Assembly: GCA_002840835.1 (NCBI GenBank)
Contig: PHCQ01000022.1
Coordinates: 1-64,000 of the forward strand
Direction of reading: 5' to 3'
Source: Betaproteobacteria bacterium HGW-Betaproteobacteria-16
GTDB taxonomy: Bacteria; Pseudomonadota; Gammaproteobacteria; Burkholderiales; Burkholderiaceae_C
Length of the DNA stretch: 64,000 bases
Part shown: in pieces, positions 343-2,322 of the stretch
Layout: each line of letters begins with the position of its first letter
How positions within the stretch are numbered: position 1 is the stretch's first letter
Program-made: the position numbers and the translations under genes
Notes under the pieces: model-generated
Database searches by the model: none
Seen by the model: only the letters and a program-made list of their open reading frames with translations
Told to the model about the DNA's origin: nothing

Positions 343-2322
343 ATGTCTTACGTCGTCCTTGCCCGCAAGTACCGCCCGCGCAATTTCTCCGAAATGGTGG
401 GGCAGTCTCACGTGGTGCAAGCCCTGAGCAATGCCCTGACGACCCAGCGGCTGCACCACGCCTACCTTTTCACGGGCACCCGGGGGGTGGGTAAAACAAC
501 GGTGTCGCGCATTTTGGCCAAGTCGCTCAATTGCCTGGGCACGGACGGGCAGGGCGGCATCACCGCAGAGCCTTGCGGCGTGTGCCAGGCCTGCACCGAT
601 ATCGACAGCGGCCGCTTCGTGGACTACACCGAACTCGACGCCGCTTCCAATCGGGGTGTGGATGAGGTTCAAGCGCTGCTGGAGCAGGCGGTCTACAAGC
701 CGGTGCAGGGGCGCTTCAAGGTGTTCATGATCGACGAGGTTCACATGCTGACCAACACGGCGTTCAATGCCATGTTGAAAACGCTGGAGGAACCGCCCGA
801 ATACCTCAAATTCGTGCTGGCGACCACCGACCCGCAGAAGGTGCCCGTGACGGTGCTATCGCGTTGCCTCCAGTTCAACCTCCGTCCCATGGCACCCGAG
901 ACGGTGCTGGAACATCTGCAGCAGGTGCTGCAATCGGAGGCGGTTGAAGCCGACACGCCCTCGCTGCGCCTGCTGTCGCGCGCTGCACGGGGCTCCATGC
1001 GCGACGCTCTCTCGCTGACCGACCAGGCCATCGCCTTCGGTGGTGGCCGCCTTCAGGAAGCCACTGTTCGCCAGATGCTGGGTGCGGTGGATCGTTCCTA
1101 TGTGTTGCGGCTGATCGACGCGCTGGCCAGGGCGGATGGGGCGACGGTGGTGGACACCGTCGACACCATGCGTGTCAATGGTTTGAACGCGGCATCGGCA
1201 CTGGAAGAGATGACGGGCGTGCTCCAGCGCATGGCGGTGATGCAGGCGGTGCCGGGCAAGGGCGCAGAGCAGGATTTCGATGACCCTGATGCCGGAGAAA
1301 TGCTGCGGCTGGCTCAATTGCTGCCTGCGGACGAGACCCAGTTGCTGTACAGCCTCTGCCTGCATGGGCGGGGCGAGCTGGGACTAGCGCCGGATGAGTA
1401 CGCGGCACTGACCATGGTGTTGTTGCGGCTGCTGGCATTCAAGCCCGCATCGAATGTTTCGGCTGTACAACCGAACCTCGCGGAAAAAAAAACACTAAAA
1501 ACTGACGCGGGCGTGCCAGCGCCAAAGTTTGGTGCTGTCAGCCCTCAGCCAGTTGCCCCTGGCCCGGTTGTGGTGGCGGTCTCCCAGCCTGTGGTGCCGG
1601 GTGCTGTGCGGGCGTTCGCCCCCCCAGCTACTGGTGAGGAACCCGCTCCAATTGTTCAAGCCCAGAGCGCTGTATCCGTACCATCCTCCACGGAATCGGC
1701 CCGCTCAACGCCGGCCATCAACAGGCCCAGCGGCTCGCACCATGAAGACATCCGCCCGGATACCGAGGCGGACGACGACCCCCCGCCGTGGGACGAGATT
1801 GCACCTTCTGAACACACTGCGCAGGCCGCCCGGCAGGTGGTCTCGGTTCCTGTGCGCGACCCGGGTTTGTCTGAGCGTCTGGAACAGCGCCACACGCAAG
1901 AGGTGGAGCGACCAACGAACGGCGTTCAGCGCACGGCCGAAGGCGATTTCTGGTTCGACACCGTGATGGCAATGGCGCGAGCGGAGCTCATTTCTGCCTT
2001 GGTCCGTGAATTGGGGCTGCAATCACAGCTGGTGGCGCGAGATGCAGAACAATGGGTGCTGCGCGTGGAGCGGGAATCGCTCAACCAGGGAAACAATCGG
2101 GATCGGCTGGCAGCGGCGCTGAAGGTGCACGGGCATGATGTGCGCTTGGTGGTCGAAATCGGTCGGGTCCAGGACTCACCAGCCTTGCGCGTGGCGGAGG
2201 ATTTGCAACGGCGCCAGCAGGAAGCCGAGCGGGTGATCAGGGACGACCCCTTTGTTCAAATCATGATGCGTGACTTTGGCGGCAGAATCGTGCCTGGCAC
2301 GCTAAAGGCGATTGCGGTCTAG
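343..2322 (+). CDS. dnaX: DNA polymerase III subunit gamma/tau
   Basis: [21 protein letters not shown] start, Walker [10 protein letters not shown], zinc-module cysteines, DEVHMLT. The ORF is open from 124 but the conserved start is at 343. Confidence 0.97.

Follow-up and report, generated by a model that had tools for sequence, protein, structure and literature searches.

A conserved run of nine adenines in dnaX of Comamonadaceae-type bacteria as a probable slip site for a gamma-like product

Introduction

The dnaX gene at the start of the window (the whole 64 kb stretch of DNA analysed here) carries a run of nine adenines, A9, at positions 1484–1492 of the forward strand, and the question raised by this locus is whether the run is a programmed slippage site through which the gene would yield a short, gamma-like protein beside full-length tau. 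In E. coli, gamma substitutes for tau in clamp loading but is unable to hold the polymerase (PMC3290774), and the need for gamma has long been debated (PMC5009743). Thermus dnaX is described as making gamma by transcriptional slippage (Larsen et al., 2000, as cited in PMC5009743, PMC1088944 and PMC3711429), and high-efficiency slippage in vivo occurs at runs of A9 or T9 (PMC5009743; PMC1088944); in Thermus, slippage has been ascribed to the presence of a second tRNA-Lys (PMC5009743). According to one review, most bacteria beyond the enterobacteria and Thermus keep no dnaX frameshift signature (PMC3290774). A 2005 genome scan deliberately excluded cases in which the product is shortened (PMC1088944), which may explain why the dnaX A9 site was missed. 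No description of dnaX frameshifting in Comamonadaceae was found in the literature searched, and other papers could already have one; the type of mechanism is known from Thermus, while its family-wide presence in Comamonadaceae-type bacteria is new within that literature.

The dnaX gene and its A9 run

The open reading frame of dnaX, encoding the tau/gamma subunit of DNA polymerase III (TIGR02397, 404 bits, and Pfam domains), occupies positions 343–2322 of the forward strand, from an ATG at 343 to a stop codon at 2320–2322, and its zero-frame product of 659 amino acids is tau. The clamp-loader core (343–1446), made up of the AAA+ module, the lid and domain III or collar, is delimited by Pfam matches at residues 20–183, 189–235 and 238–368, and would be common to tau and the predicted gamma. 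Tau domain V, which binds Pol III alpha, lies at 1879–2283 (PF12170, residues 513–647) and would be missing from gamma. E. coli gamma (1jr3) was aligned to the dnaX product over residues 1–369; since the E. coli gamma and tau structures align to these residues, the A9 run, 12 codons 3' of the core, falls just after the clamp-loader core. Downstream of dnaX are a YbaB/EbfC-like gene and then a recR-like gene, in the same order as in E. coli. Directly upstream, at 1–93 on the minus strand, is a bacterial small SRP RNA gene (RF00169, 57.5 bits), and this RNA is also present around dnaX in four of the relatives (L213, L224, L335 and L178).

At the run, the zero frame reads GAA AAA AAA ACA CTA AAA ACT GAC, the GAA at 1483 being codon 381, so that A_AAA_AAA stands in slippery register inside the A9 run at 1485–1491. 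Both alternative frames close soon afterward: the +1 frame ends at TAA (1496–1498), giving a predicted product of 384 amino acids, and the -1 frame ends at TGA (1503–1505), giving one of 387. An earlier note on this DNA had placed the run in dnaX at about codon 381, after the clamp-loader core, had read the heptamer as slippery and had located the two stops; all of these coordinates and the reading from codon 381 hold. The run is the only A9 or T9 in the window, where shuffles lead one to expect 0.14, but at least one such run appeared in 12 of 100 shuffles, and a single A9 in 64 kb is by itself weak evidence against chance. The organism's own genome (5.79 Mb) has only 14 separate A9 or T9 places.

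Conservation among relatives

The comparison covered dnaX loci of the genus, of 80 named or metagenomic relatives, and of sampled members of the family, the order and the class. At the same spot, 141 of 141 loci from the genus and Comamonadaceae have 9 or 10 A's in a row, and the number is exactly nine in 129 of the 130 unique sequences; another locus (L138) has a frame break 5' of the run. Of the 32 genera sampled at a core identity of 79% or more, 30 have A9 or A10, including Hydrogenophaga, Rhodoferax, Acidovorax, Variovorax, Delftia, Comamonas, Polaromonas, Ramlibacter, Curvibacter and Caenimonas. Of the two others, one has A_AAA_AAG and one, represented by a single genome (G636, locus L304), has A8. 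The A8 ends the zero frame at about 375 amino acids and tau domain V is again out of frame further 3', a second frame break which points to errors of assembly and not to an inverted gene. Within the same GTDB family but below about 77% core identity, most sampled genera are without any signal, so gamma may be dispensable or made otherwise there. The linker flanking the run varies among loci in both sequence and length. The earlier note had proposed looking for loss of the run in close relatives; what is found instead is that the run and the off-frame stops are kept while the linker varies. On the evidence of this conservation, the A9 run is not a chance occurrence.

Other runs of A8 to A10 turn up in dnaX linkers here and there across the order and class, and some of them differ in register or position: L165 and L171 (family f14), L246 (f28), L252 (f36), L196 and L199 (f102), L187 (f164) and L263 (f47). 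Two loci of family f7 (L147 and L149) have A9 far later in the linker, at codons 518 and 490 respectively, with a -1 stop one codon on; a slip site may have arisen there independently.

Selection on nucleotides and on off-frame stops

The A9 run is kept in 178 unique loci, which were picked for having it, the unbiased figure being the genus count given above; the codons used within these loci are nonetheless informative when set against the rest of the same genes. Both lysine codons are AAA in 178 of 178, while AAA serves for only 36% of lysines elsewhere. The preceding codon is GAA in 171 and CAA in 7, although GAA accounts for 39.5% of glutamates and CAA for 22% of glutamines elsewhere. The tree implies at least 39 changes in the codon holding the last A, which appears as ACT, ACA, ACG, ACC, AGC, AGT or AAG, and throughout the A9 set that A is always kept. 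By this pattern, selection acts on the DNA letters and not on the peptide.

The stops in the two other frames are likewise far closer than the linkers would otherwise provide, the control being every other codon boundary in those linkers. In 91% of the 178 A9 loci the +1 frame closes within 3 codons (5.8% in the control), leaving about 9% in which its stop is farther away, and a -1 stop lies within 11 codons in 95.5% (25.5% in the control). The median +1 stop is at codon 1 as opposed to 47, and the median -1 stop at codon 5 as opposed to 30. When one locus per genus is taken, the figures are 26 of 29 against 6.7% for the +1 stop and 27 of 29 against 23.7% for the -1 stop. The clearest sign of selection on the +1 stop is the choice of leucine codon at its position. 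The codon there is CTG, CTA or TTA in 148 of 148 cases, and these three make up 62% of leucine codons elsewhere; CTG is followed by A in 122 of 125, and CTA, used in 21 of 148 as compared with 1% elsewhere, has an A or a G after it every time, creating TAA or TAG. On the tree, the +1 stop has changed in its codon or its nearness at least 27 times, and the position of the -1 stop at least 46 times. Taken as a pattern of sequence, these data show selection on the stop in each of the two alternative frames.

Downstream folding

The earlier note had also drawn a hairpin downstream of the run. The region does fold, and the proposed inner pairing of AGCGCC with GGTGCT is found in the best stem, formed by CAGCGCCAA (1517–1525) and UUGGUGCUG (1529–1537), while the outer CTGAC/GTCAG stem is not in the best fold. 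This local hairpin (1517–1537, forward strand) begins 24 nt 3' of the A-run and has z scores of -2.7 to -3.75. Sliding folds across the relatives gave only a slight excess of downstream structure, with a mean z of about -0.7 compared with 0 in controls. Conserved downstream RNA structure was dropped as a part of the signal, family-wide folding being barely above control, and the hairpin, a local feature of one sequence, probably does not belong to it.

Relatives with A_AAA_AAG

Two genera in the same family, g337 (loci L213, L218, L224, L307–L334 and L377–L380) and g282 (loci L299, L300 and L335–L339), compared through 31 and 5 unique loci respectively, have no A9 and carry an in-register A_AAA_AAG instead. 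About 20 nt 5' of the heptamer, their dnaX genes conserve an element, GG(G/A)(G/A)GYGCCGYCGAGCC. Some 17 bases are identical between g337 and g282 despite the difference in their dnaX cores, which may reflect common descent, transfer or convergence; the spacer from GGGAG to A_AAA_AAG is 15 nt, compared with 10 in E. coli. A Shine-Dalgarno-like element is found in 33 of the 36 g337 and g282 loci but in 6 of the 178 A9 loci, which is the background rate. The -1 stop follows after 1–5 codons in 36 of 36, while a +1 stop within 3 codons occurs in 2 of 36 and is not enriched. The E. coli gene, used as a control, has GGGAG upstream of A_AAA_AAG; its -1 frame closes after one codon, its +1 frame only after 11. 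With GGGAG, A_AAA_AAG and only the -1 stop kept, g337 looks like E. coli-type ribosomal frameshifting. The g337 and g282 loci tested gave no match to RF00382, and their element is likely an undescribed ribosomal frameshift element.

Trees place g337 inside the A9 clade, but neither an A9 clade of its own (p 0.36 and 0.80) nor one common origin of g337 and g282 (p 0.585) could be rejected by AU tests. The content of tRNA-Lys genes was rejected as a sorter of signal types, both UUU and CUU being present in the window's genome and in g337 genomes G568 and G484 (L397, L398 and L399) alike; in g282 genomes G429 and G529, no CUU tRNA-Lys gene was listed with the pattern used. Three loci of another genus, g333 (L284, L290 and L291), have A10 followed by G, and there the long run and the A_AAA_AAG signal occur together.

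Comparison with known systems

The dnaX of Thermus thermophilus, as far as it is described in the sources cited above, resembles that of the window in having A9 in the sense strand with nearby stops in both non-zero frames, and in encoding tau as a single zero-frame open reading frame; in Thermus, gamma comes from mRNAs with other numbers of A's. The present site, whose slippage is a prediction, differs in belonging to a host of an unrelated phylum and in being kept across a whole group of genera. With E. coli dnaX it has in common the gene itself, a shortened product, here predicted, that stops past domain III, and slippery A's in register. It differs in having A_AAA_AAA followed by A rather than A_AAA_AAG, in having no upstream Shine-Dalgarno-like element and no conserved stem-loop, and in that the +1 stop too is selected in A9 loci. 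RF00382 had no match at E ≤ 5 in window positions 1300–1800, while the E. coli control scored 96.8 bits. A second Rfam frameshift element, that of Neisseria (RF01843), had no match in the window and a sub-threshold match in one order-level relative (L259). The GeneTack dnaX cluster, with 17 two-ORF genes, several of them with A10 (PMC3711429), also uses a poly-A slip site, but in those genes the shift is needed for the longer tau, whereas in the window tau is the zero-frame product.

Proposed mechanism and alternatives

Taken together, it is highly probable that the A9 run is a programmed transcriptional slip site of the Thermus type, giving a gamma-like protein of 384–387 residues beside tau. 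RNA polymerase copying nine template T's would allow the 3' end of the RNA to realign, producing transcripts with more or fewer A's. Those with 9 or 9+3n A's would give the 659 amino acid tau. Loss of one A or gain of two would lead to the +1 stop after 384 residues, and gain of one A, or -1 frameshifting itself, to the -1 stop after 387. The 384-residue product would end in EKKH and the 387-residue product in EKKNTKN. Either short product would contain the ATPase and collar domains for clamp loading, without the linker or the polymerase-binding domain. We infer that slippage is frequent enough to be useful, that its stage is transcription and not translation, and that the cell makes and uses gamma. 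Two observations count against this reading: the farther +1 stop in about 9% of A9 loci, and the lack of any signal in most genera of the family below about 77% core identity. The truncated product suggested by the earlier note is supported in that its predicted end just after the core fits the domain layout, and its proposal of a frameshift or slippage site may be refined, the slip site being supported and the pattern favouring transcriptional slippage over -1 ribosomal frameshifting.

A reading in which the locus acts chiefly through E. coli-like -1 programmed ribosomal frameshifting on A_AAA_AAA, the extra A's being incidental, is unlikely but has several features in its favour: the heptamer is in register, a nearby -1 stop is present in 96% of A9 loci, and the window's own locus has a hairpin downstream. 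A_AAA_AAA is itself slippery, so polymerase slippage may be supplemented or even supplanted by a ribosomal -1 shift; in E. coli constructs, 40% frameshifting was obtained with an A9 cassette taken from a different gene (PMC3711429). However, seven A's suffice for such a shift, yet nine are kept, and in the A_AAA_AAG relatives the position before the heptamer is free (CCA, GGA, GCA, TCA and GTA). A selected +1 stop would serve no purpose in -1 shifting, and the Shine-Dalgarno-like element, the conserved structure and the RF00382 match are all wanting in the A9 loci or the window. The keeping of nine A's and of the +1 stop, together with the lack of the Shine-Dalgarno-like element and of conserved structure, favours transcriptional slippage, and the comparison with g337 and g282 within the same family supports it further for the A9 loci.

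Slippage could be an unavoidable error, with a functionless gamma and off-frame stops as fail-safes, since hidden stops could conceivably be selected wherever slippage occurs; this is very unlikely, as one synonymous change would remove the run, and among the sampled close genera this has happened only where another frameshift signal took its place. Slightly less probable again is that the run is kept for the protein motif Glu-Lys-Lys-Thr-Leu with no recoding role. The peptide E/Q-K-K-T/S-L is indeed conserved across A9 loci, but the synonymous codons are fixed in a way that runs counter to codon usage in the rest of these genes, g337 retains the two lysines while swapping A9 for A_AAA_AAG, and a protein motif would not select off-frame stops. 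A mutational on/off tract, of the kind used in phase variation, is scarcely credible. Homopolymers do mutate fast, and A8 is seen in G636 (L304), but nine A's or an in-frame ten are present in every other A-run locus within 79% core identity, and the second frame break of G636 is what an assembly error predicts; moreover, dnaX is essential in known bacteria, which counts against such a tract.

Significance

In a large clade that includes culturable bacteria, a dnaX signature has been kept by nearly all members, and in one genus the output is retained through a different signal. It is rather likely that the same second dnaX product is specified at two levels in one family, by polymerase slippage at A9 in most genera close to that of the window and by ribosomal frameshifting in g337 and g282. 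Pairs of related strains would allow direct tests of the need for gamma and of polymerase slippage versus ribosomal frameshifting. If the two-level reading is true, the mechanism has been swapped while the gamma output was kept, which would argue for gamma itself being under selection.
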